Assembly (NCBI GenBank): GCA_009801085.1
Contig: VNWV01000002.1
Location: 1 to 64,000, forward strand
Source: Lasiodiplodia sp. COLG20
Taxonomy: Eukaryota > Ascomycota > Dothideomycetes > Botryosphaeriales > Botryosphaeriaceae
Length of the DNA stretch: 64,000 nucleotides
Direction of reading: 5' to 3'
Shown: positions 1 through 30,552 of the stretch, piece after piece
Position numbering within the stretch: position 1 is the stretch's first letter
Layout of the letters: each line of letters begins with the position of its first letter
Notes under the pieces: generated by a model
Told to the model about the DNA's origin: nothing
The model's input: the letters and a program-made list of their open reading frames with translations, nothing else
Database searches by the model: none
Program-made: the position numbers and the translations under genes

Positions 1-144
1 CCTAACCCTAACCCTAACCCTAACCCTAACCCTAACCCTAACCCTAACCCTAACCCTAACCCTAACCCTAACCCTAACCCTAACCCTAACTAACCCTAAC
101 CCTAACCCTAACCCTAACCCTAACTAACCCTAACTAACCCTAAA
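1..144. repeat. Telomere repeat tract
   Basis: This is a tandem array of CCCTAA units reading 5'->3' from the first base, so the left end of the window is a chromosome end with the C-rich strand shown. Toward the inner side, regular hexamers are interrupted by short CTAA units, giving CCCTAACTAA variants near 89-95 and 122-143. The array ends at an abrupt junction with AT-rich sequence. The TTAGGG-type repeat is the common one in filamentous ascomycetes. Confidence 0.98.
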
Positions 145-6115: not shown

Positions 6116-8414
6116 ATGAACTCTCAATCCAAACTCGTTTCTGACCATGAGAGTGTGTACACCGGCATCTGGGTCGACTGGACCAAAGGCTCGATTTTAG
6201 GAGCGACTCTGACGGTAACCAGCCGTAACGGTACTTTACTGATCGCATTCCTTGCCCTGTTTATAAGCGTGGTTGGGACCCAGTTCTGGAGGATCGCTTG
6301 CTATGGAATGCACCATTACTTTTCCTCCAAGGCGTCCAGAGACGCCCTTCATCATCAACGTCAGGCAATTCTCAGAAACGCGGCGAACGGAACATACGGA
6401 CTCTGTATTTCTGCTCTGGCTTTATGGGCCTGGGCAAGAGACAAGACGGCTGCACGACCATATCGACGATTGCTCCCTCTGATGGTGATAGCGATTTGTA
6501 TCACACTGGGCTTCGCGGCCGCCAGTACATTTTCTTCCAAGATTGCTGGCGCCCCTGGAAATCATGTCTTACTTTCCAGTCCTTTGTGCGGATCTCTCGA
6601 CATTCCCAATGGCGCGAATAGGAACTACCTCTATCGATATCTCTACCCTTATCAGGCTGAGGTTTTATCGTCAGATGCAAGTTATGCACAACAGTGTTAT
6701 CCCGACGAGACGAGCGCGCGCTGTGAGCAGTACGTCAAGCGGCGCCTTCCCGTCACGGTGACGCGCAACGCACCCTGTCCCTTCCAAAAAGACCCCAGCA
6801 TTTGTAAGCTGGCAGAGGGCAACATCATATTTGACACAGGCTATCTGGACAGCCACTTCGACCTCGGAATCAATGCCCCGGAAAAAGATCGAGTGCAGTT
6901 CCGGCGAGTTACCACCTGCGCACCCTTGGTCACAGAAGGGTATAAGGATTCGGTTCAGGTTGAGGGCGCTAAAGCAAATTACACGCGATATTTCTACGGT
7001 CCGAATACTGCACAGTCATCTGAGCCAAATGCACCCACATATGTGTATCCAGAATGGTCATTTTTAGAGTGGAAAACGTCAACCTTCATATCTGGAGAGA
7101 AGAGCGAATACTCTCTAGGGTACGTATACACCGCTTCCGTATATTTGGACGGTCTGACCAATGCAATGAAGTGGCAATCAATACAGGACCCAAAACGGAC
7201 AGATCAACACCACATGGGGAACCTGGACACCTATTCCATCCCTCATGATGCCCGACGCCGATGTGACTCTGACCTTCCTCTCCCCGAACTGGATCTTATT
7301 CGCCGAGGAAGTTGACGATCCATTGTACTCTGCCCATCGACACATCGCGAAGCTTAGAGCGGACACTGGCGAAGGAAGCGGGGCCACAATCGACGCCATC
7401 ATCGCCGACGAGCCCGCATCTCCCCTCGTCTGCATCTCCCAGCAACAGTACTGCAACCCCAATCTCGACGCCGGCGCCCGCTGCGCGCCTATGGCCAGCA
7501 GTCTCGATTCCTTCCGGCTTGGCGAAGCGCTCTGGCCGGACGAACAGCAAAAGCGCATCCACCGCTGGTTCTGGCTCCTCATCGACAACAGCGCCGACAT
7601 CGCCGCCGTCCAAGGCACCCTGTCCACGTCCTCGCTGTTTTCCCGCTTCCGCAAGCAGTCTGGCTTCCAGGGCCCGCTCGCCGCGGACCAGTGGCAGCAG
7701 GATCTCGAGTACCAGCACAACGTCTCCCTGTCCAACCTCCAAAGCATGGCCGTGCTCTTCGCAAACGGGCCGTCCGACCCGGACGTGCTGCAGTACCGCC
7801 AGCCCCCGCGCAACGCGCAAGAGCGCAGGCTCTGTCGCAGCCAGGTACGTTAACGCACGCGGTCCGAGTCTCTGCTTCCCAAAAGCGAAGTTTCCACAGC
7901 TGACCCCTCCCCGAAGAAAGTTTTCAGCCGCGCCTACCTCAACTTTTCCATCCTCGGCCTGTCGCTGACGCTCGCCATCGGCAGCGCTATCATCGTCCTT
8001 TCCTACCTTCTCGAGCCGGTTGTGAGCTATTTCCAGCGGCGCCGCAACTTGGACCCGTACGCCCGCCTAGAGTGGGCGAGCAATGAAACGCTCCAGCTGC
8101 AGCGGCTAGCGCACGAGGAGCTGGGTGTCGGGTCGTGGAGGAGATGCCTCGAGGCTGTGCCGACGACGGGGAGAGGTGAGAGGTTGGCGGTGCTAGATGT
8201 GGGGGATTTGAAACACCCCAGGTTGAGGGCGGTAGGGCCCGGATTAGAGGCTGTCATAGCCGTGGAGAGTGAGGAGGGGAGAAGCTTGGTAAACAGGGAA
8301 GATGAGAAGGAGGATGATGAAGTTGCGGTTGAGAGCATTGGAAGAGAAGATGAAGACATAATTCCTTTGGGGATTGATGAGAGGCGCGTACATAAAAGAG
8401 GGGAGTGTTGGTGA
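6116..8414 (+). CDS. Multi-pass membrane protein, paralogue A
   Basis: Unrecognised fungal membrane protein. The model joins 6116-7119, 7172-7844 and 7917-8414, giving 724 aa. Both introns (52 and 72 nt) have GT..AG ends and keep frame. Hydrophobic segments lie at about residues 40-65, 95-110 and 125-145, followed by a large Cys-containing, N-glycosylatable loop. One more segment lies near residue 570 (ILGLSLTLAIGSAIIVLSYL), before a cytoplasmic-type acidic tail. It is clearly homologous along its length to the gene at 42480-44561: shared ILGATLT/IFGATLT, HHQ..A..RN.ANG and YARLEWASNETL..QRLAHEELG blocks. Intron 1 is at the identical position in both; intron 2 is unique to this copy. It is the first gene inside the telomere. 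Function unknown; no enzyme motif seen. Confidence 0.8.
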
Positions 8415-8721
8415 ATTGGAGGCCATAACAGCTTGCTTATCCCCTGTGTGATAGCCGTAAGAAAGCTTTTCCGGAACAGCCTACTCTGGAAAAAGGACCT
8501 CGGGAGACTCAGATCAGACTCCTTCCTGATTCAGGCGTAATCGGGCAATAGTCTCTGACGATGCCGCAGCGCTTGTCCAACCAACAACCCGGAGTTTGCT
8601 AATATCCGGACAGGACCGGTGTTAAGGAATTAACTCCAGCATCTTTTAGATACTTTATAAAGCTTCCGTAGAAAATTGAAAGTGAATGCCATTAATCAAT
8701 ACTTCCACGAGCCTTTGCATC
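8415..8721. other. Intergenic, inverted repeat arm and epimerase promoter
   Basis: About 8410-8487 is the right arm of an inverted repeat whose left arm is at about 5709-5783, so the two arms bracket the membrane-protein gene. The rest should hold the promoter of the epimerase gene. No other feature was seen. Confidence 0.5.
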
Positions 8722-9663
8722 ATGGCCAAGCAGCGCATTTTCATGACCGGCGGCAGCGGCTACATCGGCTCCGCTGTGACCGAGCTCGCCATCTCCTGTG
8801 GTTACGAAGTGTACAGCCTCTCCTGCACAGAGGCCAGCGATGCCAAATTGACTGCACTGGGTGCCACTCCGGTGCGAGGCGACCTGAACTCCCTCGACGT
8901 GCTGCGCCAGCAGAGCGCCGCAGCCGACATCGTCTTTCATCTCGCCGACTCGCTCACCGACGACTGGGGCCAGGACTACGCCAAAGTTGTGGCCACGGAT
9001 GCCGCTGCCGTCGACGCCATGGGTGCCGGCTTGGAAGGCACCCACAAGCCCTTCGTCGTGACGTCCGGATCTCTGGTTGTAGCCGCCACCGGCGCCGAGA
9101 CGGACGAGGATTCACCGCTGTGGGAAAAGCCGCTTAACGACCGCATCAAGTCCGAGCAGCACGCCCTCGAGCTCTGCAAGAAGAGCATTCGCGTCTCTGT
9201 CATCCGCCTGCCCCCCTTCGTCTATGGCCGTGGTGGCAGCGGAGTTAGGCTGTTCATGACCATGTTCGCCAACGCCGGCAAAGCCACGCTCGTCGACAGC
9301 GGGAATACCCCAACCTCTGCAGTGCATGTCGATGACGCCGCCACGCTGTACCTTCTGGCCGCGGAAAAGGCGAAAGCGGGGGATGTTTTCAACGGCGTGT
9401 CGGGAAATGTCACGTTTCGTGCTTTGACCGAGGCCATGGCGAAGGCGCTCGGTCTTCCGGTGCACGAGTTGGGTCACGGCGAGGCGGAGGTGCAGTTTGG
9501 CGGCTTCTTTGCACGCTTTCTTAGCACGGAGAATTGGGCATCTGGAGCGAAGGCTAGGAAAGAGCTGGGGTGGGACCCAAAGGGCGCTGATATCATTGAT
9601 GAGGTAGAGACTGGTTCCTATGCTACCGTCGTTCAGGATCTGAAGAAGACAGCTGCCCCATAG
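8722..9663 (+). CDS. NAD-dependent epimerase/dehydratase (extended SDR)
   Basis: A single-exon extended short-chain dehydrogenase of 313 aa. It opens with the Rossmann nucleotide-binding motif TGGSGYIGS within the first 20 residues, and has FHLAD in the usual second-strand position and a substrate-domain PPFVYGRGG motif. The conserved family start MAKQRIFMTGG favours the ATG at 8722, which has a good context (catcATGG), over an in-frame ATG 36 nt upstream. The active-site YxxxK is not obvious, so the reaction cannot be predicted. It converges on the polyketide synthase with only 51 bp between stop codons and may act on the polyketide or a sugar-like intermediate. Eighty bases of this gene (8737-8816) recur almost unchanged at 51221-51300. 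Confidence 0.85.
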   Translation: MAKQRIFMTGGSGYIGSAVTELAISCGYEVYSLSCTEASDAKLTALGATPVRGDLNSLDVLRQQSAAADIVFHLADSLTDDWGQDYAKVVATDAAAVDAMGAGLEGTHKPFVVTSGSLVVAATGAETDEDSPLWEKPLNDRIKSEQHALELCKKSIRVSVIRLPPFVYGRGGSGVRLFMTMFANAGKATLVDSGNTPTSAVHVDDAATLYLLAAEKAKAGDVFNGVSGNVTFRALTEAMAKALGLPVHELGHGEAEVQFGGFFARFLSTENWASGAKARKELGWDPKGADIIDEVETGSYATVVQDLKKTAAP

Positions 9664-9714: not shown

Positions 9715-12700
9715 TCAAGGTGCTTTCATAAGGAGATACGTGTCCCCATCGCTCTGGACAGCGGGTCGGAATTTGTTCTTCAAGCCTTCGGCAGCAGTCT
9801 TTGCCAGTTGACGGATCGAGCCCGAGTTCGAAATCTCCAGAACGCTGATCTCCAATCCCAGGCTCTGGCGCCACCAATTCTTGATCTCTATGGCCACCAA
9901 TGAATCGATTCCAAGCGCAGTCAAAGACAAGTCGACGTCTAACTCTTCTTCTGGCTTCAACATCAGACTGTAGATGCGGGTGCCGATTTCCTGAGCCAGT
10001 ATGTCCACGTTTGCGGGCACGTCCAGCATGGCCGGCATGGTGGCCACTTCAGCAAGAAACCTCTTCAGATCTGCACCACCGGCTGTGGTCGAGCCTTGAG
10101 TAGCCGTCTCCGTGTTGCGGTACTGTGCCATGCGCACATCTCGCTTCCAGATAGATCGGTTGTTCGGCTCAGTGAGTGGGCGGGTGGAGCGAAGGCCGAT
10201 GACCAGCTCTGCAGGGCTCATGAACCCCTTGGGAGATGGGGTTGGGGACATTTGCCGCTGCATCTGGTATTCCAACGCATCGAGCAGATCCTGTTCTTGC
10301 AAGGTGTGGTTGCACAGCGCCTTCAGCTGATCAAGCACCCCGGCGTTCTGACTGACATAGCCCACGTCCTCCATCACTCCAACGTTGAGAACGCTGGCTG
10401 GAAGTCCGAGCGAGTGGCGGTATTGTGTGAATGCAGACAGGAATGCGTTGGCAGCCGCATAGTTAGCCTGACCGATCTGTCCCACAATACAGGATATCGA
10501 ACTGAAGACGATGAAGAAGTCCAGTGTTGCCTGGGAAAGGGCGTGGTGCAAATTTTCTGCTCCTCGAACCTTTGGTTCAATAGCAGCAAGCCACTCTTCA
10601 TGGGTGAACTGTAAGAAGGCGCGGTCCTGCATATACCTGTCAGCTGGATGACATCGATTTCGCCATGTGAACTTACCCTCAAAACCATAGACATGTGCAT
10701 GACTCCTGCGATTGGCTTTCCAGCTTCCCGAACAGCACGCTCAACATCCTTCAGATGAGCTACGCTGCCACGAACAGCCTGAACTCGGCAGCCCTGGGAG
10801 TGAAGCTCACTGAAGAAAGCCTTATCTTCAGCCGTGTCGCCTGCCGTCCGCGACAGGTAGATGATGTGCCTGGCTCCATTTTCCACCATCCAGTTGGACA
10901 CGGCCCGGCCCAAACCGCCCAGACCTCCGCAAAGGAGGTAACTTGCGTCTGAACGGAGTTTGAATGCGGATCGGGTAGGCACCGTTTCGACGTCTGTCTG
11001 TTGCTCAGGCATCGTTACTACAAGCTTACCAATATGCTGCCCTTTTTGCATGTAGCGGAATGTCTCGATAATCTCCGAGGCAGCAAAAGTCCTGACCGGC
11101 CTGATGGGTTGAATCGAACCACGGCGGTAAAACTCCATGCACTGATCGAGCAGCCTGCAGAGCGGTCAGCTCATTATCAAAATCAGCCATCTTTTCTGAT
11201 GTCTTACCTTCTGCACACTTGCGGTCTCTCGACAGCAAGCTGAGCGAGATCGATTCCGACGAAAGTTCGATTGGCCTCGAAGAGATCCATGTTCAGCATG
11301 CCGTGGCCCACGAAGTCTCGTTTGCCAATCTCAAGCATCTTTCCGAACTCGGCAACGCATTTCCATGAGGCATGAAGAAGCTCTCCAGAGAGAGAGTTCA
11401 ACACAAGATCGACACCGCGTCCGCCCGTGGCGGCGAGCACACCTCCGAGGAAGGAAGCATCTCTTGAGTTGAAGATGCGGTCTTGAGAAATGCCAAACGT
11501 CTCCTTCAGATGCCTTGCCTTTTCCTCGTTGCCGACGGTCACAAAAATCTACATCTTATCAGCCTCGTGCGGGCAACTGATCAACGATATATCTTACCTC
11601 GGCTCCGATCATCCGGCACAGCTGAATAGCCGCGAGTCCTACACCTCCGCATGCGGAATGGATCAAGACGGTCTGTCCTTTCTCAAGGTGTCCAAGTGTC
11701 ATCAACGCATAGATGGCAGTGCTGTAGACGCAAGGCATAGTCGCACCGTCCTCGAAACTTAGGCTATCCGGCATCTTGGCGCACAAGTTGGCCGAGATGA
11801 CCAGACGCGTGGCGAAGCAGCCGTGATCGAAGACCAGAACCCTGTCGCCGACCTTGAGGTCCTCAACACCAGAGCCAACCTTGCGGATGACTCCGGTCCC
11901 TTCGAGGCCGAGTCCGGGTTTGGTTCCTTTGACGATGCCCATGGCCACGAGCACGTCCTGTCAGAGTCAGTTTAATTCTCCCAACGACTGTTTTGGCCCG
12001 TACCTTGAAATTCATGCCGACCGCCCTCGGCTCAACCTCAACCTCGTCCTCCCCCAGGCTCTCCTCGCCCCTCCTCTCCTCGACCCACTGCAGCGTCCGC
12101 AGCTGGCCCGTGCGGCCAATGTCTAGCTTCTTGGGCGCATCTTGCACGGCCGCGCACAGCCGATCCGCCACACCAACCCAGCGGAACCGCGGCACGTGGA
12201 CGCGGCCGCCGAAGAAGGCGTACTCGTAATCAGGGTCGAGTATGGCGTCGGCGTTGGCGTTCTTCCTGGCGGCGGTGAAGTGTTCAAAGACGCGGACGAT
12301 GGCGCCTTCTTCGTTCTTGGCGTCGTTGGCGGCGACCTCGAGCGTGCCGAACGCAAGCGACAGCTCCGATCTCACTGTGCGCGCGACGCCGATGCTCTGG
12401 CCGTAGCGGGGATCGTGGCAGCCGGCCTGCGCGGGGCGCGTCACCCACAGGATGCTGGGGCTGCCTGAAGCGTTGCCGAGCGCGCCCAAGTAGGTCTGGA
12501 AGGCGGCGAGGGCGGGGGCGGCGATATCGGCGAAGAAGGGGCCGGCCAGGTCGAGGATGGCGAGGACGTCCCGGCCGTCGGTGGGCGGGGCGTCGGCGAG
12601 GGTCTGGGGCACGGCGGTGATGCCGGCGGTGAGGAGAGAGGCGCTGAGGCGCTCGACGGCGGCGTCTTGGCCGGGAGCGTATAGCAGCGTCACTTCGCGG

Positions 12701-15700
12701 CTGCGGGAGAGGGACGTCGGGGAAGCGTTGCTCGTGGTGACGAGCGTGAAGTTGATTTGATAGGGCTGCTCATCGTCGTAGACGACCGACTGGGCGCCCG
12801 CAAAGCCCGCGTTGCGCAGCTCCAAGTCCCAGCGGGAGGGCGCCATGTAGGGCTCTTGCGGGCGGCCATCGGCTTCACCAAGCCACCATCCTGGGAGAAG
12901 GCCCTGATGTTTTGTCAGTGATAAGAGGGGCTTGGAAGGTGCTGTGCTGTCTTACCATGATCAAGTTGAAAACCCTCCATACTACCCGATATTAGCACAA
13001 TGGTCGTTTGAATGGATATTGAACTTACCTGGCGAGAGCTCTTGGAGGAAGAGCCGGCCACCGTTCTTCAGAAGCTTCTTAACGTTGTACAGTGTCTCGC
13101 TGATGTTTGGCGTGGCATGAAGGACCTGCGAGGAGTTAAAATGAGTACTGAGATGGTGCTGGTAAACCTACATTGGCGGCGATGACTAAATCGTACGAAG
13201 CAGCCTCGAAGCCCTGCGCCAGTGGATCCTTAGTGATGTCGAGGACTTTGTACTCAATTTTTTCGTAATCCTGGAACTTCTCTGCAGCCGCCGCAAAGAA
13301 GCCCGAGGAAATGTCAGTGTAGTCGTATCGGGAGTAGTTCCGCTCGCCGGACAGCGTGAGGTCCCTGAGCACGGTGCTGGTGGTTCCGCCCGTGCCAGCT
13401 CCAATCTCGAGCACCCGCATGGTTGGGTTCGCGTGAGAGAAGAGCTCGAAGTACTCTTGGGAGTCCCATATGTCCTGCATGAATCTGTAGATGTCCTCGA
13501 GGCCACCGTCCTGCATGAGCACCTCGAGTGCTTCTTTATTGTCGTCAAAGATGGCCTCTGCATGCTCGACAATGTTTTCAACGACTCTGCCCACCAAGGA
13601 CCCGGCCGAGTCTTCCACTTCTTCCTTGGCCGCCTTGAGGACACGCAGCCGCTCTACGCGGTTCATAGAAGCCAGTGCCACGGCGTCTTCAACCAGCTCG
13701 TACTGTCCACGCTCAGCCCGAATTTTCTGAGTGGAGATCCACGATTTGTATTTCTTCAGGTGCACACTGCTCGCATCAAGGGACGATATCCGATCGCAAA
13801 CCTCGAGCAGGCAGAGCAGCGAGAACCTCTCGAGCTTCAAGGTATCGTCTCGGAACCCGCGAAGCGGGCGAATCAGTTCCTCCGGCGCAATGAAGTCAAT
13901 GCTGGGCTTCCAGTGCATCTCAGCGCCGGCCACGGTATCGCTGTTGCCATCCGCTACTTCGTCTTCCAGCGGCGAAAAGCGGCCACCTGTCAACCGCATA
14001 ACCGGCTGCGTGCCAGCAACCATCATGCCGTTGCCGCTGATAGCTCCATTCCCGGATCCCGAGACGGAGACGGCAACGCGCATGTCGGGGCTGCCCCTGG
14101 ACACGTAAAGCTCCTCGATGCTAGTAGGGACGCAGAGCTTGTTCAGGTGCCTCCCAATACCATCAGCCATGGCTGCAGTGAAAAGCTGTAGACAAAAGTC
14201 AATGGTGGTGGGATGCAGCTGGTAGTGTGCCTCTCCATCAGAGCGGTCAGAAACACTTGCTGACGCCTCCTTCTTTCCCGGGTTAGCCGAGATGTTGCTG
14301 AGGCCTTGGAACTCTGGGCCGTAGTTCAAGCCAACCCGCCGCATCGCGTAGTACCAGGAGTCAGAAGAGACTGCTCGCGGGTACGTGTCGACCGCCGCAT
14401 GCGACGGCGGCTGCTCCGAGCCCTTCCGGACCTGTCCTTCGCAGTGTTTGGTCCAGGACACGCCGTTGTACGAGACGACAGAGAACTCATACCAAACTGA
14501 GTTCAGCGAGGTCGTGAGGCGCACCGGGCTAAGGCGCGTCATGACTTCAACGGGATTCGACTCGGTGAGGACTAGGGCAACCTTGATGTCCATCCTGCGA
14601 ATGGAGAAGTCTGACGCATCTGCTGTCTGGCGAATGGCTTCCCCGGCCATGGCTATGTAGCAGGCCGCGGGGAAGATGACGTCGTCGCGGATCTTGTGGT
14701 CCCGGGCCCAGGGAATATCGTCCAGACTAATCATGTTCCTCCAGGTGGGATCGAGCTCGTTTGACTCGAGGGTTCTAGAACCCAAGAGTTCATGCGGCGC
14801 AAAGGGGCGCAGGCGCCACTGCCTTGCCACGCGGCTTTCGCACCAGTACTCCTTGTCGTGGCGCCAAGGGTACTTCGGTAGGTCAGTCAATACCTTGTTG
14901 CCAGCCGACATGCCTTCAAAGCGGACTGGCACGGCTTGTTGGAATAGTCGACCGACTGTATCCAGCAAGGTCTTCGTGTTGTTCTCGCCTCTGGCCATGC
15001 ATGACATGTAGACTGGCACAGCTTCCGGTCTGTGCGCCTTGAAGATTGACCTCAGAGGTCCGGACAGGGCTGCGTGGGGCCCGACCTCGAGGAACACGGC
15101 TTCTTTGCTAGATGCTTCTAGCATCGACTGCACCGCCGTGTAGAAAAGGACCGGAGACTCAAGGTTTGCTCGCCAATAAGATGGTCCCAGGTGTCCTGGC
15201 TCAACAATCTTCTTGCCCGAGACGCTGGAGAAGAGGGGAGCTGAAGGTTGGACATCATGCACCAGGCCCTCCATGACAGACTGGTACAGGTCACCAACAG
15301 CACGCATATGGTGCGAGTGGTATGCCATGTCGACCTTCAGGCGCCGAACAAACGTATCGGGCTTGGCTGATTTGATGCGCTCAATGCAAGCGTCCAGTTG
15401 GTCTTCGTCACCCGAGATAGTGACACTGCTGGGGCTGTTTTCACAAGCAATAACAACCCCTCCCTGGAGACGCGGCGTCATCTCACTGCGGCCCAATCCA
15501 ACGGCAGCCATTCCTCCGGGAGAAAGCTGCTGCTTGGTGACCTGACCTCGGTAGTAGGCTATCTGGATTGCAGCGTCGGAGGTGATGGCGTTCACCGCGT
15601 ACGCTGCGGCAATCTCTCCGCTGGAGTGGCCAACGACAGCAGCAGGGGTGATTCCCCAGGACCTGAGCAGATTTACCAGTCCGACTTGCACAGCTGTGCA

Positions 15701-17841
15701 GATGGGCTGGGAAAATTCGGCTCGGTCAACACGGGCTTGCTTGGCAGGTCTGAAAAGCTCCTCTAAACAGATAATCAGCTACGCAGTCGAGCTTCAGCTG
15801 AGTACATCAGCACTTACCTTCAAGAGTCCACAGAGGAGCGTGGCGCGTCTTCTGCAAAGCATTGTCCATGATTCGAATATCTTCACGGAATTGCGGGAAG
15901 TCGTTGAAAAGTGTCTGCCCCATTCCTGCCCATTGTGCGCCTTGCCCAGTGAAGACAAAGTTGAGCTGCGGTGCGGATTTCGTCTTGACAAACTGCGAAA
16001 CGTGGATTGGGCCGCCTTCTTCGCTGACAGCATAGGCCCGCCACGCCAAATGATCTCTCCGCGCTCCCAACGTGTGTGCCACGTCTGTAAGTCGAGAAGG
16101 ATCTTTTTGGCAATAAGCTTCGATTTGCGTGATAGATTCACGAAGCGAGTCTGGATGATCCGCTGAGAAGGTTAGGAGGTGTGGGCGGACTCTGCTTGAC
16201 TGGCTTTCTTGGCGTGCTCTCGGCTTGAAGGATTCTGCAGACTCCAGAATGACCTAAATATTACCTGTCAGCGTATTGCTTTGTTTAATACAGCATTCCT
16301 TCTCACGTGTGCGTTTGCGCCTCCGATCCCAAAGCTATTCACGGAGGCCCTGGGTAGGCGGTCCGTCGGCCATGTCGTAGGCTGAATCGGAACAGCAATT
16401 TTGCTCTTCGCCCACGGAACTGCGAATCGTCAGCAAGTATCACTACACAAAGGATTTGGGGCGTACTCTTAGGATTCGGCGTCTCAAAGTTGATATTCGG
16501 GGGGATGATGCCACGCTCGAGGGCCAGCGTTGCCTTGATCAAGCTAGTGATTCCGGATGCACCTTCGGAATGACCGACATTTGGTTTGACCTGCAGAATA
16601 CTCAGCATGCGTACAAGATTGCACTAAGGAGAAGGACCGAACTTACAGAACCGATCAAGACGCCTTTACCATCGAAGACATTGCCCACTGCGGTGACTTC
16701 AAGAGGGTCACCGATGGCTGTGCCTGTACCGTGGCACTCCACAAACCCGGTCTTCGAGATGTCCGTTATGCCAGCCACCTGATACGCTCGTCTGATCATA
16801 GCTTCATGGCTCTCAGCACTGGGATTGGCGATTCCGGGCGTTTTGCCGTCGCAGTTGGTTGCTGTGGCGCGAATCACCGCACGGATTGGGTCTCCATCCC
16901 GCAGTGCGTCGTCCAGCTTCTTGATGTATATGGCATTGATCGCTTCTCCACGGGCGTACCCGTCAGCACGAGCGTCGAATGACTTGCAAGAGCCTGTCGG
17001 AGACAGTACTCCCTGCTCGGTCATCGAAATCGTCATCGACGGAGTGATGATTAGATTGGTACCGGCAACTACGGCAGACTCGCACTCCCCAGAGTAGATT
17101 GCTTGACAAGCCTCGTGCAAGCCGATCAGCGAGGATGAGCATCCTGTTCTGATCGTCATACTGCTAAAGGTTAGCAGGGCTGGATTTGGAGATGTGTTTG
17201 GGTGCTCACCTTGGGCCCTTCAAATCGTACTCATAAGACACACGGTTGGAGAGCGCAAAATCCCCAGAACCTGTGATGCGGTACATGCCCAAATGCTGAG
17301 GGTCTTTGGCCGATAGGTCGAGCCAGTCTTCTCCAAAGACACCCACGTAACAGCCGATGTTGCGGCCACGCCATTCGCGCTGGCCGCCGCTCTCCATGCA
17401 CTCCCACACCACTTCCAGCAGCATTCGCTGTTGGGGGTCGAGCTTCTCCACCTCTGTCTGGTTCATGGAAAAGAATGCTGCGTCGAACCGCTCGAACTCG
17501 GAATCCTGTAAAAAGTAGCCGTATTGTGACTTTACGGTTCCTCGAGTGCCTTTCGAGCTCTGGAAAGCATCGATGTTGTACCGGTTTCCCGGCACTCTGC
17601 AGCGGCCATCTCCCTTCTCCACCAAGAGCTTCCAGAAATCGTCACTGGAATGAATGCCGCCGGGGAGTCTCATGCCCATGCCCACAATGGCAATTGGCTG
17701 AGGGCCGTGAGGGTTGGCATTCTGGTGACTGGTGGCATACTCACTTCCACTTGACGGGGTACGGACACCATTTGTGCCGCTCCAGGAAGGGGGTTCTTGT
17801 CCAACATTCACGCCTCCTGATGAGAGAGCCTCCGAGACCAT
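9715..17841 (-). CDS. Highly reducing iterative type I polyketide synthase
   Basis: An HR-PKS of 2507 aa in 13 exons: 17841-17210, 17160-16647, 16590-16467, 16419-16307, 16253-15818, 15762-13172, 13125-13029, 12981-12956, 12903-12004, 11957-11598, 11548-11208, 11154-10677 and 10626-9715. All junctions are GT..AG and the frame is open throughout. Domain order is KS (Cys218 in RTGCSSSL, His354, His389), AT (GHSSG, Ser653), DH (His962, Asp1128), C-methyltransferase (EIGAGTGG about 1392), ER (CGGVG), KR (GGLGGLG; Ser/Tyr in [16 protein letters not shown]) and ACP (LGIDSL, Ser2446). All catalytic residues are present, although DH has Asp where HxxxGxxxxP has Gly. There is no thioesterase or reductase release domain, so a partner enzyme should free the product. 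Exon 8 is only 26 nt. It is the core gene of the cluster. Confidence 0.95.
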
Positions 17842-21183: not shown

Positions 21184-22092
21184 TCAACTGACCTGCATGC
21201 GAGCCAAGCCGCCCGTCTCACCCGCCCACGTCTCCTGCACGACCGCCCAGTAGCGGGCGGCACCCTCGCCCTTGGCATGGGCGCAGTGGCCCGTCCCGGC
21301 AAACTTCTCCCTGCGCGTGCTGAAGCCCGCGGCCTCGGCGTCGCGGGCGTGCGCCTCGACATCCTGCCAGGCAACCATGGGATCAGCGTCGCTGTAGACG
21401 TAGCAGCGGCGCGTCTCGCGCACCAGCTCGGGAGAGTTCAGAGCGACACGCAGCCGCTCGATGGGGTCGGCGACGCCCCACGGGCGGAAGCACAGCCAGT
21501 AGAGGCCCAGCACAGCCAGGATGGCCGGCGACAGCAGCCAGCGCAGCGCGACGGGCAGCGATTCGGCCAGCGCTGCGTACGAGCGCCGGACCGAGCCTCG
21601 TCCGGGGCAGGAGTCCAGAACTGTGGCGTGCAGCGGGAGTGCCTTGGCCGTCAGGTCCAGGTGGGCGCGCAGCAGCACCCGCGTTTGCGAGGCTCCGCCG
21701 TTGGAAAAAACGTGCAGGAGGATCCGTGGGGGCTCCGTCGACGTCGAGGAGAGGTCAGACTCCGGCGGGGTGGCCATGGCCTCGATGGCCGACTGCAGCC
21801 GGCGGCGCCGCTTGGGATACGTGCGGAACAACATATCCTTGATCGTGCTGCGGACGACCAGGATCCGGGCAGCTGGGTAGATAGCCTGGTATCCGGAGAC
21901 GTATTTGCCAATGTGCGCGGGCTTTGCAGCCATCCATGTGGCCAGGATGATAAGTTGGGGCTGCGATCCATCAGGATTCTCCTGGGGGTTGACGTTTGTG
22001 ACAATGGGCTGATAGAGCTCAATTCCGGGACAGAGACGCTCCATGGCTGACAATTGTGGATGTGTGGATGTTGCGGGAGCCGTGGTCGGCAA
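21184..22092 (-). CDS. TMEM53/PaxU-type (DUF829) alpha/beta hydrolase
   Basis: A single-exon protein of 302 aa, or 286 aa if the second in-frame ATG at 22044 (MERLCPG) is used; the latter fits family starts better. The sequence shows the DUF829 pattern: an early ILATWMAAKPAHIGKY block, the nucleophile elbow HVFSNGG (Ser130), a central hydrophobic stretch (about 180-200), an SDADPMV acid loop (Asp234 or Asp236) and a late GHCAH (His268 or His271). Relatives such as PaxU occur in fungal secondary-metabolite clusters. Because the neighbouring polyketide synthase lacks a release domain, this enzyme is a candidate for releasing or hydrolysing the polyketide; that role is inference. It shares a 145-bp divergent promoter with the exporter gene. 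Confidence 0.8.
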   Translation of the reverse strand: MPTTAPATSTHPQLSAMERLCPGIELYQPIVTNVNPQENPDGSQPQLIILATWMAAKPAHIGKYVSGYQAIYPAARILVVRSTIKDMLFRTYPKRRRRLQSAIEAMATPPESDLSSTSTEPPRILLHVFSNGGASQTRVLLRAHLDLTAKALPLHATVLDSCPGRGSVRRSYAALAESLPVALRWLLSPAILAVLGLYWLCFRPWGVADPIERLRVALNSPELVRETRRCYVYSDADPMVAWQDVEAHARDAEAAGFSTRREKFAGTGHCAHAKGEGAARYWAVVQETWAGETGGLARMQVS

Positions 22093-22237: not shown

Positions 22238-23998
22238 ATGTCGTCTGAGCGGAAGACTGATCCGGATCCTTCCACCGCAACCAGTCCCACACACGAAGCC
22301 GATGCCAACAATGTCGCACCTTCTGGAGATGACTGGAAAGCTGGCAGAGCAGAGTGGATGATCATCATAGTCCTGGCCTTTGTATCATTGATGGTGTCTA
22401 TTGATGCCACTATCCTTGTAACAGCCCTTCCTGTGAGTATACCTCCCGCTGCACTTGATCTAAATTACTGAAACATTTTTGTAGGCTCTTGCTCGCGCAC
22501 TGGATGGAACTGCCGTAGATACATTCTGGACGGGAACATCGTATCTCTTGACCGAAGCAGTCTTCCAACCATTCGTCGTTGCCCTGTCCGATGTATTCGG
22601 TCGCCGCAACATATACCTCCTGTCCCTGGCTTTCTTCACCGTGGGCACGCTCATCTGCTGCCTCGCAAACAACTTCAGGGAGATGCTCGCCGGCCGCTCC
22701 ATCCAGGGCATTGGCGGCAGCGGCTTGCTCTCTCTCGGCCTCGTCGTCGTCACCGACATCGTCCCCTTGCGTCAACGCCCAACATACGTCGGCATCAACC
22801 AGCTCTCATGGGCACTGGGCACCATTATCGGTCCACTTCTCGGCGGTGTCTTCGTTGACCGCTCGACGTGGCGCTGGATATTCTACATCAACTTCCCTTT
22901 CTGCGCCGTCGGTTTCTTGACCGTTCCTCTTGTGATGCGCCTACGCGCCGAGCGTCTGTCTCTGAAGCATCGATTGCTAAACATGGACTGGCTTGGAGGC
23001 GTTCTCTTCATAGGATCCTCTTGCAGCTTTTTGATCGGCGTGTCCTGGGGCGGCTCGCAGTATGCATGGTCGAGCTGGCGCACGCTTGTACCCATCATCG
23101 TCGGCGTCATTGGAGCTGGGTGTACCATCGTTTGGGAAGCCTACGGAACATCCGCTCCCTTCTTAAGGTTGGAGCTGTTGAAGGGCCGCTCTGCCGCCAT
23201 GGCCTACACGGGAGCAGTTCTCCAAGGTCTTCTGGTGAGCCATCTTTTCACACTATCAAACACGCTGGCTAACAATATTCCGAGATGTTCTGCGAGCTCT
23301 ACTACATCCCCCTGTATCTCGAATCAGTCAAGGGCTTTGGTCCGATCCTGACTGGAGTGGCGCTCATGCCACTGATAGGCGCTCTGCTCCCCGTTAGCGT
23401 CATCGTCGGTCGCCTGATGACACGATGGGGGCGGTACCGCTGGGCTGTGTGGTCAGGCTGGGCGATAACATGCGCCGGTACGGGCACACTGATCCTGCTG
23501 GACCCCGACATCCCGACCTACGGCTGGGTGCTGATCTTCATCCTCGTCGGCATCGGACACGGGCTGATCCTCATGTCGCTGAACTTTGCCATCCAGGCCA
23601 TGGCCGAGACACGCAACGTGGCCTACGCTGCCGCCATGTACACCTTCTTCCGCACCTTCGGCATGAGCATTGGCGTCGCCATTGGCGGTGCCGTCTTTCA
23701 GAATATGTTGCAGGTCCATCTCGCCGACCGTGGCCTGCCCGAGGCCGTTGCTCATGACGCTGAGAGTTTTGTGACGGTGCTTAACATGATGCCCGAGTCG
23801 TCGAGCGAGTATCAGCGATATGTTGAATCTTACTCAGAAGGGTTCAAGAATGTCTTTGAACTGCTCACTGCCGTTGCTGGCGTGGCCGGCCTAATGAGTC
23901 TCCTTATCAAAGGGTTTACCATGGACAAGGCTTTAGATACGGATCATCAATTAGTGGTTACCCGGGATGAGAGTGACCGTTCTCTTGCACAAGATTAG
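22238..23998 (+). CDS. MFS exporter, 14-TM drug:H+ antiporter type
   Basis: A major facilitator efflux pump of 552 aa. Exons are 22238-22432, 22485-23234 and 23285-23998, with introns of 52 and 50 nt in phase 0. A short hydrophilic N-terminus precedes the first segment (MIIIVLAFVSLMVSIDATIL). DHA-type motifs include VTALPALARAL after helix 1, SDVFGRRN between helices 2 and 3, and GRSIQGIGGSG in helix 4. About fourteen hydrophobic segments can be counted, as in aflatoxin/trichothecene-type efflux pumps. It very probably exports the cluster product across the plasma membrane and may add to self-protection. It is divergent from the hydrolase. Confidence 0.9.
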
Positions 23999-25942: not shown

Positions 25943-27088
25943 TGTTCTGAAAGATGGAACATAAAAGAGCTGGGTGATGGTGGATTCGCATCTGATCTCA
26001 AGAAGGCGTTTTTATAGCTAGCTTAAAGCTTTTAACTCGGGGCCGGAAAGCTGACTTTCCGAACTCGTTCTCAAAGTTGTGAAGGCGAGTCAAGCATGAA
26101 CTGGTCTCCGAAATTCAACTACACGGATCCTCCCGGCGCTCGTACCAGCTCTTCGACTTAACAGCAAGAGCCATCCGAAGCACCATTTAAAGTTTCCCAT
26201 TTGCGGTATCTCAGCATTTTCTAAGCGTACCGGTATATGATCAATGTAATGTGACGTAATCAGAAGGCCGTAGAGCAGCTAGTCTACTCTAGCAGACAGA
26301 AAGGCCTCGTACGCCGGCCATTAGGCGTTTGCTGTTTCGAAACGACCCAGCGTTACGAGGGGCGGCCACTCGCCAATGCCCTCGAGACACTGTGTTCGTT
26401 TTCTTTTTCATTGAAATTTTGTTCGATTTCACAAGTCCCTCTATTTACTCTGACTCCCTCATCGCTGAATCGAATAGCTCCACCTCAGATGCGGTGACAA
26501 ACAACCGACACTCTCAGTAGCGACTAGTCTCATTCATTGCAGAAACTATAAGCTTTCAGGCGGGCAGCCAGAATACCATCAGCCATTCGGATGCACTTCC
26601 AGGCCACCATGCATTTCCTATTCCGGTACATGCCGACGCTACAACACTTTAAGCTGCAGCTTCCGAAGTTTGCCGAGCGCTATATGCCGTACCCGAGCGG
26701 TGCGCGGGGACACCGAGATCGACAAGCGGGCGCCGAGCAGACCGGTAAGTTCATTCACGACCAGTGCAATTTGCCCAAGCAGTAAGACAAGGAAAGGGGT
26801 GACAATGAGAGAACGAAAGGGTCTGTAACAGTTGACTTGTAATTAATTCCAAGGTGCACTGGCGGAGACAAAGAAACAGTGCAGCCCTCTGTCAGAGTTG
26901 ACGCAATAAGAGCGGTGCACTGCCACGGCACAACCATATGCGCGGCGTTCCCTCCGTGCCCGGCCGAAGCGAAGCGAAACGACGGAGAGCAGTAGTAGTG
27001 TTACCGAATAGCGCATCCTCCCATCATATAACGCGGGAACGAGACACCAACCTCACGACTCTGCCAAAAGTCCAACACGTCTAACAAT
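25943..27088. promoter_or_regulatory. Divergent P450 / QCR8-homologue promoter region
   Basis: About 1.1 kb without a supportable gene. It contains the perfect inverted repeat CGGAAAG-CTGA-CTTTCCG at 26044-26061, upstream of the P450. Close to the QCR8 homologue (about 26959-26990) a CCCGGCCGAAG stretch shares the CGGCCG core found twice in the regulator/SDHC promoter. These are plausible Zn2Cys6 sites; binding is inferred. Confidence 0.4.
26044..26061. promoter_or_regulatory. Inverted CGG repeat (candidate Zn2Cys6 site)
   Basis: CGGAAAG at 26044-26050 and its exact complement CTTTCCG at 26055-26061 are separated by CTGA. Inverted CGG triplets are typical targets of dimeric Zn2Cys6 proteins such as the one encoded at 27588-29582. 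It lies 102 bp upstream of the P450 start. Confidence 0.4.
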
Positions 27089-27537
27089 ATGCATTACATC
27101 GACAAAGATAGCCGCGGCCAGTAAGTCTGACCCTTATCTCTTTGGCATCAGAAGCGTCAAGGCTAAGGCACATCAGCTTGAGCATCCACGCTCTACACAA
27201 GCCTGAATGGGGAGCGGCATCCGAGCTCTGCCCGCAGCGAGGCATCGTTACCTACAGGCTTGCTCCTAACCGCGTCAACCCCATGGCTGGAGCACTCCAC
27301 GCAGCAGTTTTCAACGTTGGGAGGAGAACAAGACAGCAGATATTGTATTGGGGGACGCCGATGCTGCTGGGTTATCTCACGCTGCAGTGGGCGGAAGAAA
27401 GGTATGTGGGAAGCCGGAGAGAAGAAATGTCGCTCCTGCGGGATGTGAAATCCATTGAAAGACCTAACGCCGAGATGTACAGGAACAAATTCGCAAACAG
27501 CAAAGAAGGCAGAAAACTTTACCAAGAGGAAAACTGA
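27089..27537 (+). CDS. Complex III subunit 8 (QCR8) homologue, probable diverged paralogue
   Basis: A 103-aa homologue of ubiquinol-cytochrome c reductase subunit 8, a single-helix inner mitochondrial membrane subunit that packs against cytochrome b. Exons are 27089-27120, 27177-27401 and 27483-27537. The core PQRGIVTYRLAPNRVNPMAG, ALHAAVFN..RRTRQQILYW and the C-terminal ER[NK]..NSKEGRK end match the family. Intron 2 is 81 nt and stop-free, so a naive model keeps 27 false residues; splicing it restores the conserved WAEERNKFANSKEGRK. The N-terminus lacks the usual glycine-rich GKYxGWWG-type segment and reads HLSIHALHKPEWGAAS instead. It sits between the cluster P450 and the regulator, only 50 bp from the regulator's stop. 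This position and its divergence suggest an extra copy kept for self-protection. That it could be the sole housekeeping gene is not excluded. Confidence 0.82.
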
Positions 27538-27587
27538 GCGAGGAAATGTCTGAACAGGGCGAGGAAAAGTATGTGTATATACACAGT

Positions 27588-29582
27588 TCAGAAATAAAAC
27601 CACCTGCTCCAATCCTCATTACTGCAATCTACAAGGAAAGGATGATCGTGAGTGGCTCCATCGAAAACGCCGAACGGCGTCTCGAAGCCAGGAATGGCGA
27701 TGCCGGTAGGGGCGCCTGCGGCCGACGACGCCGCTCCGCCACCATCGAGGGAGGATGAGCTCATGGCGACAGCATCTCGGGCAACGCACCGCCGTCGGTC
27801 CTCTTCCAGGCAGCCCATCATGCTCTTGAGACACGCGGCATACCTCGCGCTGAAGTGCGCGTCGTCAACGCTCGAGTCCTCCAGCGCCCGGACGAGCTGG
27901 GCCAGGAGATGGCGCGGATCGTCCGTTGTCGTGCGAAGCGGCAGCCTTTCGGCTTTCAGCACAGCTAGGGACGCGGCGATGACGTGGTAGAGTACGTTGA
28001 GCGGGGCCAGGCGCAACAGGCCTTCGCGGTGCAGCTCCAGCGCGACACCGATGACCGATTCAGAAGCCTGCAGCCATTCTTCGGCCATGTGCTGGTCCTG
28101 ACGGCTGGAATGGCCCATCTGCAGCATGCGGGGTGGGGGTATTGCCGCTTGCCCGTTGCCGTTGTTGCCCGACTCGAGCCTGCTGGGCGGCAGGGATCGC
28201 TCCCGGAGGAGGGCGCGCAGGGATATGCTGTAGAGGAATGCGCGGGTGCCCTGCCACATTATTTCCAGATGCTTCCCGAGCGGCGGTGAAGATGCCTTGA
28301 CGCGGTCGAAGCGTGTTTTCCATGTGGCCAAAAGGCCTGAGAAGTCGTCGACCGTGGTGTGGTAGTTTCCGCGGACGATCAGATCGGCCGTGTGGCGGGC
28401 ACTGGGGTACAAAGTGTTCTCGATCAGGCGGGTAAGTCTGTAGAGTTCCATCCTACTCTCGAGGATATTGTTGAGAGCTGGGGCATTCGTGATTGTTTTA
28501 GACCCGTCGGCTGGATGGCTCAGCTGGCATTTGCGGCCAAGGCGAAAGCTCCTCTCCCAGACAAGCGATACCAAGAATTCTTGCACACGTGCATGACGGA
28601 CGTCAGAGATTCGGCTGGGGATGTGCTGTGATTTTGTCATCACACTGTGCAGGCCAATCTCATCTGCAAGACTAACTGCCGTGCACAGGAGTCGCCATGA
28701 TGTGATATTAACCGCCTTGAAGGTATCCCATGCTGTACGCACATGTGATTCCAGGGAAACGTCAGCTGTGGTTGGTGCAGGAGCATATCCATATTGCTCA
28801 AGAGCATAATCGCCCACAATGTCTTTGGGTGGTGTGATCATGTCCATGGAGCGTGGACGCCACTCGACAATCAGCATAATACTCTCGATGATGCTCAGTG
28901 TCCTGGCCTCGCTGTGTCTTCCCGGGCCAGAGCCCCAAAGACACCGCTGGAGCTCTGATTGTACATGTCGATATAATGCTCCATGGACTTCAGTTGCCCT
29001 TGCAGAGAAGGCACTTGCCTGGTGCCAGGCGCATCGTGAAGTGATGGCAAGGACGGTGGTGCAAAGGAAGGCTTCCTCGGTAACAAACTGAGCCCTGTTG
29101 GCAATATTACAATACTTGTCATCCACAAGCGGGTACATCGGATGCATGTATCGGAAGAAGTAGTCAATCAGATAGTCGGCATCTTGGGGCGAGAGGTAGC
29201 CGTCTCGACAGAGAGCGAACTGTGTCCAAGCGAAAGCGGGTACGGCAACCCGACCCTCTTCTGGAGACTCCACGGCACGGGTGACGACTGGGCCTTCATC
29301 AGTGCTCTGTAGCTTCGGTCTGTAGGGAGGTTCGGCCCCCTTCGGCAGTCGGGATGGAGGTGGGTTGTGCGAGCGGTTCGCGCGCGGCATAAGCCTCCGT
29401 GCAGGACCGAAGACACATGAAAGTCTCGCTCTGCGGCATCGAACGCAGGGGGGGTTCGGAGATTCGGTATCTCCCAATTGGCACTTTACTTTGTGCTTTT
29501 TGCACTCAAGGCACGCCTGGTAGTTCCTGCGGCCCGAGGGTTCGTGTCGCGTCGCGCTGAAATCAAAGGTGGTTTCGGCCAT
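27588..29582 (-). CDS. Zn2Cys6 transcription factor, probable cluster regulator
   Basis: A single-exon fungal regulator of 664 aa. The binuclear zinc cluster is complete: Cys24, Cys27, Cys34, Cys46, Cys49 and Cys56 (CX2CX6CX11CX2CX6C) with the basic loop KKHKVK. A basic/proline linker follows (residues 57-90). The middle-homology region of fungal-specific transcription factors runs from about 115 to 500, with the phrase YFFRYMHPMYPLVDDKY at its start. The C-terminus is Ala/Ser-rich. It is flanked by the QCR8 homologue (convergent) and the SDHC homologue (divergent, 357 bp between starts). It is the only regulator near the polyketide synthase, so it is the likely pathway-specific activator; target genes are inferred. 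Confidence 0.9.
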   Translation of the reverse strand: MAETTFDFSATRHEPSGRRNYQACLECKKHKVKCQLGDTESPNPPCVRCRRARLSCVFGPARRLMPRANRSHNPPPSRLPKGAEPPYRPKLQSTDEGPVVTRAVESPEEGRVAVPAFAWTQFALCRDGYLSPQDADYLIDYFFRYMHPMYPLVDDKYCNIANRAQFVTEEAFLCTTVLAITSRCAWHQASAFSARATEVHGALYRHVQSELQRCLWGSGPGRHSEARTLSIIESIMLIVEWRPRSMDMITPPKDIVGDYALEQYGYAPAPTTADVSLESHVRTAWDTFKAVNITSWRLLCTAVSLADEIGLHSVMTKSQHIPSRISDVRHARVQEFLVSLVWERSFRLGRKCQLSHPADGSKTITNAPALNNILESRMELYRLTRLIENTLYPSARHTADLIVRGNYHTTVDDFSGLLATWKTRFDRVKASSPPLGKHLEIMWQGTRAFLYSISLRALLRERSLPPSRLESGNNGNGQAAIPPPRMLQMGHSSRQDQHMAEEWLQASESVIGVALELHREGLLRLAPLNVLYHVIAASLAVLKAERLPLRTTTDDPRHLLAQLVRALEDSSVDDAHFSARYAACLKSMMGCLEEDRRRCVARDAVAMSSSSLDGGGAASSAAGAPTGIAIPGFETPFGVFDGATHDHPFLVDCSNEDWSRWFYF

Positions 29583-29939
29583 GTCCAGAAAACAAAAGGT
29601 AAGCGTTGGGTAGATAGTGGAAAGGATGCAATAATCCTGGGAAGAGTGTTAAGTCTAGGGCGAAAGGATCGGGAGCGCTAAGGGTCGCCCGAAGTTGGCC
29701 GGCCGCAGTTTCCCGCGAAGTTACATACATAGCGGCACAGGTTCCCGAAGTTAGCCGGCCGCTTAACCGACCACATGGTTTTCTGTCAGTCTTGAATCCC
29801 GCTTGGTGCAAAGTCTGATGAATCCAATTCTCTCTTTCCAGTCATCTTCCTCCTGACTTCTTGCATCCGCCTCGCCTCCCGTATAGATTCAGAGCTTTAA
29901 TTACTCTACAAGCTGCGAAAACGTCCAGCAGTCCTCAAA
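29583..29939. promoter_or_regulatory. Shared regulator/SDHC promoter with duplicated 19-bp element
   Basis: CCCGAAGTTGGCCGGCCGC at 29688-29706 and CCCGAAGTTAGCCGGCCGC at 29744-29762 differ at one base and start 56 bp apart. A degenerate third copy of the left half (TTCCCGCGAAGTTAC) lies at 29710-29724. The core GCCGGC/CGGCCG is palindromic, as expected for a Zn2Cys6 dimer site. The location between the regulator and the SDHC copy suggests joint control or autoregulation. Confidence 0.55.
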
Positions 29940-30552
29940 ATGCTTCGCCAGCCCAGCTTGAGAATCCCGGCGCGTCGTGTACTGGCCTTGATCCGCCCCA
30001 GCCCACCATCAAGGGCCATTACCACCACATCAAAGTACAAATGTCAGACTCAAACCTCAACGACACCGACCTGACACTTTCTCTAGAAATTTCTCCACCA
30101 CCCGGATCTCCCCCACCTCCTCCCCATCTACCAAAGCCACCCCCTCCCTCCTTGAGACCCAACGCCTCCGCCGCCCCGTCTCCCCGCATCTCTCCATCTA
30201 CCGCCCGCAGCACACGTGGTTCAACCCCTCCATTCTAGGCCGCATCACTGGCTGCATCCTGTCCGGCGGCCTGTACCTCTTCTTCGCCGCGTACGCCGTC
30301 GCGCCGCTACTCGGCTGGGACCTGCGCGTCGACGCCGTCGCCGCCACCGTCGCTGGGCTGCCAAAAGCCGCGCGTGTTGGTGCAAAGGCAGCAGTTGGGC
30401 TCGCGGGCGCATTCCACTGCGCCAACGGTGTGCGGCACCTAGTGTGGGACCTTGGCAAGGGCGTTAATACGGTCGCGGTTAGGAAGAGCGGGTGGGTCGT
30501 TGTAGGGTTTAGCGTCTGCAGTGCCGTCACGCTCGCGTGGTATTCAGAGTAG
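29940..30552 (+). CDS. Succinate dehydrogenase cytochrome b subunit (SDHC/Sdh3) homologue, probable diverged paralogue
   Basis: A 186-aa homologue of the complex II haem-b membrane anchor that forms the ubiquinone site. Exons are 29940-30034 and 30087-30552 (52-nt intron). Residues 1-35 are an Arg-rich mitochondrial presequence ending in NFSTTR. The family block RPVSPHLSIYRPQ (61-73), three hydrophobic helices and the haem-ligand motif FHCANGVRHLVWD (His142) are intact, so it looks functional. The ubiquinone loop reads TWFNPSILGRITG (75-87). Family members usually read TWYLSxLNRITG or TWYLSSLHRIS. Here the loop is one residue longer and has Gly83 where Asn or His precedes the essential Arg; that Asn is N86 of Zymoseptoria SdhC, a known SDHI-resistance site. 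A dispensable resistant SDHC paralogue is known in Zymoseptoria. Placement beside the cluster regulator suggests self-resistance. Confidence 0.9.

Follow-up and report, generated by a model that had tools for sequence, protein, structure and literature searches.

Gene content of the subtelomeric locus

The analysed window is the stretch of 64,000 nucleotides at the start of contig C12 (C12:1-64000) of Lasiodiplodia sp. COLG20. CCCTAA telomere repeats occupy positions 1..144 on the forward strand, so the locus is subtelomeric. Three adjacent genes, coding for an accessory subunit 8 of respiratory complex III (QCR8), a Zn2Cys6 regulator and an accessory SDHC, the cytochrome b subunit of complex II, lie 1.1 kb from the nearest cytochrome P450 gene of an HR-PKS cluster. 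The first-pass annotation had placed these three genes side by side near an HR-PKS, two P450s, a hydrolase and an exporter, and Pfam domain matches bore out the whole arrangement, with PF02939, PF00172 and PF01127 all above cut-off in the trio.

The cluster includes, as a probable member, a gene of the NAD-dependent epimerase/dehydratase family (8686..9663, forward strand; PF01370, 55 bits). The HR-PKS (9715..17841, reverse strand) has the domains KS-AT-DH-MT-ER-KR-ACP according to Pfam matches on six ORF pieces, the ER domain being assigned from a weak match together with reading of the translation. The remaining genes are a cytochrome P450 (18572..20653, forward strand, approximate start; translation, with PF00067 on the last exon, 46.6 bits), a DUF829 hydrolase-type gene (21184..22044, reverse strand; PF05705, 159.3 bits), an MFS exporter (22238..23998, forward strand, approximate start; PF07690 on two exons), and a second P450 (24064..25942, reverse strand; PF00067 on two exons). 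The HR-PKS is 95–96% identical to L. theobromae proteins in matches covering 51–72% of the query. Similar PKSs carry the source names lepA, LovF, FUM1 and ALT1, none of which indicates a quinone-site product.

The QCR8 gene (27089..27537, forward strand; PF02939, 84.4 bits against a cut-off of 25.2) was modelled with three exons (27089-27120, 27177-27401 and 27483-27537) encoding a protein of 103 amino acids, and this splice model agrees over its full length with the annotated L. theobromae protein P0121 (97% identity). Among PDB entries, the product matches chains of subunit 8. The regulator of 664 amino acids (27588..29582, reverse strand; PF00172, 24.5 bits against a cut-off of 21, and translation) is followed by the SDHC gene (29940..30552, forward strand; PF01127, 83.9 bits against 25.8), whose exons at 29940-30034 and 30087-30552 encode a protein with 89% identity over 99% to an L. 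theobromae protein. The best fold match of a moderate-quality model of this protein is yeast complex II SDHC (E 4.1e-05). The coding sequences are open.

The regulator and SDHC share a divergent promoter of 357 bp (29583..29939) with 19-nt direct repeats at 29688 and 29744, and a third copy of the promoter motif is located between the P450 and QCR8 genes (26663..26676, forward strand), also within a possible small ORF. The motif pattern, picked after the sites were seen, has 10 sites in the genome, three of them within 3.1 kb in the window, and looser versions of it showed no excess over shuffles in the window (7 matches against a mean of 4.7, and 22 against a mean of 20.1). The regulator has paralogues in its own genome, the closest of which has a motif site some 114 bp upstream of its inferred start. 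The CCGAAGTTNGCCG sites may serve as DNA-binding sites of the Zn2Cys6 regulator. The surroundings of the paralogues were analysed by Pfam scans of 10 ORFs around C23:2494987 and 6 ORFs around C12:1664304, and elsewhere by ORF lists and the motif only. About 7.5 kb separate an accessory QCR8 on contig C23 from a gene paralogous to the window regulator, and the member of the regulator subfamily at C12:1664304 lies near a P450, a gene of the FAD-binding monooxygenase type and a sequence with a weak match to MFS.

Extra gene copies and the quinone pocket of SDHC

Profile searches revealed three loci for QCR8 and three for SDHC in the genome, and a single locus each for five other subunits of complexes II and III (SDHD, QCR7, SDHB, QCR9 and QCR6); PF02921 (Rieske TM), used as a sixth control, gave zero matches and says nothing on copy number. 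The possibility that the window genes are the sole genomic copies is thereby rejected. Each duplicates an essential gene that is normally single, as expected of a target duplicate, in line with the duplication supposed in the first-pass annotation. Third-position GC, calculated for these short genes, is 0.77 in the window SDHC, 0.84 in the copy on contig C1 and 0.61 in that on C45; the values for QCR8 are 0.62 in the window, 0.82 on C1 and 0.81 on C23.

The accessory SDHC differs from its homologues at several positions of the quinone pocket. I78H and a one-residue proline insertion between W80 and S83 occur in none of 118 other homologues, and N86G is present in two. The fourth change, A84I, is weak evidence when taken alone because isoleucine occupies this position in 18 of the 118. 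A single-chain model of moderate quality (mean pLDDT 70.6, with values below 50 at residues 70-72 and 74-76, adjoining the insertion) places the extra residue where helix I begins. The protein retains S83 and R87 (Z. tritici numbering), as well as H134, N137, R140, H141, W144 and D145 (numbering of the C1 copy), each of which is identical in 118/118 of the others. Judged from the alignment, the quinone pocket is rebuilt with its conserved Ser/Arg/His residues kept.

A similar combination, an extra SDHC with isoleucine at A84 and the conserved residues kept, is described for ZtSDHC3 (alt-SDHC) of Zymoseptoria tritici. According to the accessible part of that report, this isoleucine was shown to give resistance to a subclass of SDHIs, and alt-SDHC assembles into a working enzyme (PMC6941823). 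The window SDHC goes beyond ZtSDHC3 in I78H, the proline insertion and N86G, in the adjoining PKS cluster, and in the promoter common with a regulator. Resistance-like changes (W80S, A84I and N86S) are also found in the SDHC on C45. This gene has an RTA1-type neighbour about 400 bp away, and the sequence GCCCGAAGTTACCC, resembling the window motif, is located about 116 bp upstream of its ATG. None of the PKS-like loci of the genome, the count of which is a lower bound, is near this copy.

Distribution in relatives

Close relatives of the PKS, SDHC and QCR8 are present in L. theobromae, the only species besides the window's genome in which both accessory types were seen; these comparisons concern gene presence, not linkage. 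The SDHC type, as judged from a FastTree phylogeny, occurs also in Macrophomina, and a QCR8 type with the same N-terminus in Neofusicoccum. Residues 1-31 of the window QCR8 are identical to those of N. parvum while the remaining sequence diverges, a pattern suggestive of a separate, conserved function.

No orthologous PKS of Macrophomina or Neofusicoccum was found among the 120 matches listed, and among these the HR-PKS cluster appears so far only in Lasiodiplodia. The nearest N. parvum PKSs, P0130 (61%) and P0132 (59%), were considered as orthologues and rejected since they cluster with Podospora and Cercophora enzymes (support 0.886), apart from the window PKS; the best match of P0130 in the present genome is the window PKS. 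QCR8 and SDHC look like older accessory subunits which now stand beside a Lasiodiplodia PKS.

Putative self-resistance and its alternatives

The use of SDH genes for self-resistance in fungal clusters, invoked in the first-pass annotation, has precedent: SDH is given as the resistance gene for atpenin B and harzianopyridone in the accessible part of the FunARTS list (PMC10320164). These cases resemble the window locus in that a complex II gene copy is tied to a fungal biosynthetic cluster; here, by sequence, the subunit is SDHC, a subunit of complex III accompanies it, the cluster is of the HR-PKS type, and resistance is putative. For the citreoviridin cluster, the same source likewise names a respiratory-chain target gene as the self-resistance gene; this F1-ATPase beta subunit belongs to complex V, and the window genes to complexes II and III (PMC10320164).

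The locus most likely serves to protect complex II. The reading we favour, at a probability of about 0.4, is that accessory respiratory subunits are governed by a local Zn2Cys6 regulator and that the SDHC substitution guards against the product of the neighbouring cluster. Besides the copy numbers and the pocket changes, the promoter common to SDHC and the regulator, with its repeats, and the close relatives of all of PKS, SDHC and QCR8 in L. theobromae speak for it. The regulator locus would form a small set of accessory respiratory subunits beside the HR-PKS cluster. When switched on, and after mitochondrial import, the alternative SDHC would replace the housekeeping SDHC in complex II, which would still reduce quinone and would bind quinone-site inhibitors poorly, as with Zymoseptoria alt-SDHC. 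The most likely inhibitor would be the product of the neighbouring cluster. In complex III, the housekeeping QCR8 would give way to the alternative one, and such accessory subunits could act as spare parts that keep up respiration under a quinone-site poison.

The first-pass annotation had gone further and proposed that the polyketide inhibits the quinone sites of both complexes, or of one of them with partial overlap, and that insensitive subunits are swapped in. As a paired module, a dedicated Zn2Cys6 regulator would turn on the pathway to one or more polyketides blocking both complexes at their quinone sites, along with a modified QCR8 and an SDHC proof against the inhibitor. Paired self-resistance has partial support. 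Its complex II part is favoured by the extra copies, the altered SDHC pocket with conserved residues kept, and the SDH precedent. The paired module as a whole is improbable. Known bc1 inhibitors target the quinone sites of cytochrome b, not QCR8. Strobilurin producers, which likewise concern a complex III quinone-site inhibitor and resistance of the producer, have altered mitochondrial cytochrome b, to which the resistance is attributed, and a cluster without an obvious resistance gene in the part of the report at hand (PMC6158276); the complex III gene in the window is QCR8. The presence of the QCR8 type in Neofusicoccum and of the SDHC type in Macrophomina, for which the 120 listed matches held no orthologous PKS, and the C45 SDHC with its resistance-like changes and no nearby PKS, also weigh against the pairing, and against self-resistance through SDHC as well.

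The last two observations fit a general shield, an inducible SDHC and QCR8 directed against quinone-site poisons from outside, made by the plant or by competing microbes, under a regulator of a xenobiotic-responsive family and with the PKS unrelated. The RTA1-type gene and window-like motif near the C45 SDHC, and the C23 QCR8 near a regulator paralogue, point the same way. However, the window trio directly adjoins pathway genes, and the surroundings of the subfamily member at C12:1664304 are those a pathway regulator might have; this explanation is on the unlikely side. It is rather doubtful that the alternative subunits are metabolic isoforms adjusting respiration for low oxygen, plant-tissue growth or development. 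Steinhauer et al. discussed metabolic adaptation as a role of paralogous SDH subunits and gave the example of yeast (PMC6941823), and the N-terminus shared with N. parvum QCR8 agrees with such a role, but the changes in the window and C45 SDHCs hit pocket positions while conserved residues stay, and the regulator and PKS neighbourhood are left unexplained.

Proximity to a PKS carries no significance on its own. Scoring of 19 among 116 candidates gave at least 15 PKS-like loci including that of the window, and their neighbourhoods, at some 40 kb for each, make up about 1.4% of the genome. Adjacency of QCR8 and SDHC by chance is unlikely, as the probability of some such pair within 3 kb is about 4 x 6 kb / 43.5 Mb, roughly 5e-4, by post hoc hand arithmetic assuming two non-housekeeping copies per gene placed randomly in 43.5 Mb. 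Although the telomere at position 1 and the PKS coverage would suit duplicated genes that landed near a PKS in a rearranging subtelomere and have no common function, there is little likelihood of this given the pair estimate, the promoter repeats and the position of the C23 QCR8 close to a paralogue of the regulator.

Should SDHC be a self-resistance gene, the cluster would make a natural inhibitor of complex II that is so far undescribed and would offer a direct lead for target-guided genome mining, and the locus would supply one reason for the retention of SDHC paralogues in fungi, whose role Steinhauer et al. called unknown in the accessible part of their paper (PMC6941823). If QCR8 takes part, a complex III subunit would join the kinds of self-resistance gene, as a new one, since neither QCR8 nor any other complex III subunit is among the 13 self-resistance cases in the accessible part of the FunARTS table (PMC10320164). 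If the locus is a general shield, it would illustrate a possible way for a Lasiodiplodia-type fungus to withstand quinone-site inhibitors with its housekeeping genes unchanged.

Gene order and copy number at the C12 end

The genome comprises 43.5 Mb in 88 contigs, and the window covers positions 1–64 kb of contig C12. Telomere repeats open the window and are followed by 4 kb at 25%–27% GC; the stretch at 145–4000 is very AT-rich, almost without ORFs, and RIP-like in appearance only. The polyketide cluster consists of an epimerase gene (profile match), a minus-strand HR-PKS with KS, AT, DH, MT, KR, and ACP domains found via Pfam and an ER domain indicated by a weak ADH_zinc_N_2 match and the translation, two P450s, a DUF829 hydrolase, and an MFS exporter. 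Left of the epimerase lies a possible gene (6089–8414), two ORF pieces of which were tested and gave no Pfam match. The cluster genes are followed by QCR8 (27089–27537, plus strand), the Zn2Cys6 regulator (27588–29582, minus strand), and SDHC (29940–30552, plus strand). The stop codons of QCR8 and the regulator are 50 bp apart, and the start codons of the regulator and SDHC are separated by 357 bp. The M13 peptidase, DUF3433, and DUF3632 genes further along do not look like cluster members; an SDR, a tannase, a P450, and a FAD-binding monooxygenase-type ORF at 51561–63647 form a second set of possible pathway genes. The top protein matches come from Lasiodiplodia theobromae (PKS 95%–96% over 51%–72% of the query, SDHC 89%, QCR8 97%).

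A six-frame search of the genome revealed three QCR8 loci (contigs C1, C23, and the window) and three SDHC loci (C1, C45, and the window). The control subunits SDHD, QCR7, SDHB, QCR9, and QCR6 had one locus each, and PF02921, with zero matches in the genome, was uninformative as a control. The window genes are therefore not the sole SDHC and QCR8 genes, and the first-pass annotation was right to treat them as extra copies and to single out their arrangement around a regulator beside a PKS cluster, which is beyond chance. The C1 SDHC is taken as the housekeeping copy because it clusters with an ordinary-sequence Macrophomina protein (FastTree support 0.97); the C1 QCR8, judged from its N-terminus, is presumably the housekeeping one.

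Within ±20 kb of the C23 QCR8, the 10 ORFs scanned included a HET gene and a hydrolase but no PKS. Ten near the C45 SDHC gave no PKS either, their hits being an SDR, an ankyrin protein, RTA1, and, weakly, a P450. Of the 15 PKS-like loci identified in the genome, a lower bound, none lies on C23, and the single one on C45 is 1.5 Mb from SDHC.

The remodelled SDHC

In a FastTree phylogeny of 123 proteins (the best 120 of 295 matches plus the three own copies), the window SDHC groups with L. theobromae P0001 (support 0.975), joined next by Macrophomina P0003 (0.90), whose gene model (283 aa) has an odd N-terminus, and then by P0002/P0004 (0.875). The C45 SDHC groups with Neofusicoccum parvum P0018 and P0035 (0.98), and the two types join at 0.63 only. 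Given these groupings across genera, both accessory SDHC types seem older than the genus.

Residues are numbered as in Zymoseptoria tritici, S83 and A84 following PMC6941823 and the rest counted from these. In a comparison set biased to relatives of the window copy, because it was built from its best matches, I78H and a single-residue insertion in the W80–S83 interval occur in 0/118 other homologues each, apart from P0001 and P0003, which share both. The window SDHC also carries A84I (Ile in 18 of the 118 others) and N86G (2/118); S83 and R87 are unchanged, as are six invariant residues in the region of the two conserved His. In a predicted single-chain model, which matches yeast complex II SDHC chains including inhibitor-bound ones, the insertion is placed at the start of helix I.

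The C45 gene (C45:1592628-1592993), a second non-canonical SDHC ~400 bp from an RTA1-type gene, encodes W80S, A84I, and N86S and retains S83 and R87; W80 and N86 are resistance positions. The gene may confer natural tolerance of complex II inhibitors. An SDHC paralogue of Z. tritici is incorporated into a working complex II and, through Ile at the A84 position, gives resistance to an SDHI subclass (PMC6941823).

QCR8, the regulator, and a promoter motif

The QCR8 protein search returned six matches: P0121 of L. theobromae (97%), P0122 of N. parvum (82%), P0123 of Oleoguttula (66% over 80%), P0124 (69% over 70%), and two further fragments. The own C1 (47%) and C23 (38%) copies are both less alike than that of Oleoguttula, so the window type may be an old QCR8 line. 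P0122 equals the window protein across residues 1–31, every difference lying further on, and this unusual N-terminus, conserved in two genera, argues for a specific role of window-type QCR8. An old name of QCR8 in PDB titles is ubiquinone-binding protein QP-C. The target of known bc1 inhibitors is cytochrome b, and a swapped QCR8 would therefore need to act indirectly. A literature search, mainly of open-access papers, turned up none that describes QCR8 as conferring resistance within a cluster.

The regulator/SDHC promoter contains two 19-nt direct repeats, CCCGAAGTT(G/A)GCCGGCCGC. The pattern CCGAAGTTNGCCGR, picked after the sites were seen, has 10 genome sites vs 5 for a reversed control, and three of the 10 are in the window (29689, 29745, and 26663); looser versions were no more frequent in the window than in shuffled sequence. 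The site at 26663 is 426 bp upstream of QCR8, in the P450–QCR8 interval, within a possible two-exon ORF of 69 aa (26591–26904) that matched no Pfam family and for which no other copy was found in the genome. Another of the 10 sites lies ~114 bp upstream of where the closest regulator paralogue (C23:2494987-2496996, 49%) is inferred to start, a distance similar to the 107 bp in the window. A related sequence, GCCCGAAGTTACCC, is found ~116 bp upstream of the C45 SDHC start; none was found upstream of C1 SDHC, C1 QCR8, or C23 QCR8.

The regulator subfamily has six further loci in the genome (E <= 1e-10). One, with a Zn2Cys6 domain (C23:1081677-1083495), is ~7.5 kb from the C23 QCR8; the probability that any of the six would land at most 8 kb from one or other of two accessory genes, calculated by hand and post hoc, is ~0.4%. 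Near another, at C12:1664304, lie a P450, a FAD-binding monooxygenase-type gene, and a weak MFS match.

Possible roles: self-resistance or a general shield

The role of SDHC paralogues, of which a phylogenetic survey suggested zero to two in multiple species, is called unknown in PMC6941823, which offers natural inhibitors as one possible cause. Of the 13 known fungal cases listed by FunARTS, those of atpenin B and harzianopyridone have succinate dehydrogenase as the resistance gene, an F1-ATPase subunit accounts for one case (citreoviridin), and complex III genes for none (PMC10320164). Strobilurin producers are described as having a cluster without an obvious resistance gene and a cytochrome b of the resistant type (PMC6158276).

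The first-pass annotation proposed paired protection of complexes II and III from the polyketide. Its complex III half, the novel part, is the least supported. It is a reasonable, though unproven, idea that the poison is the product of the cluster itself, and evidence from the relatives leans towards a more general shield against inhibitors. Close PKS relatives were limited to two L. theobromae proteins among the 120 matches listed of at least 7451, which stand alone with the window enzyme in the PKS tree; N. parvum PKSs cluster with Podospora and Cercophora enzymes. No PKS named as from Macrophomina was among those 120, no Macrophomina QCR8 among the six QCR8 matches, and no window-type SDHC from N. 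parvum among the best 120 of 295 (P0018 is of the C45 type). A gene absent from such lists of predicted proteins may still be present in the genome: gene prediction readily overlooks small or split genes, and only proteins with exact words in common become candidates. Among the functions weighed, protection of complex II through a remodelled SDHC is the best supported.
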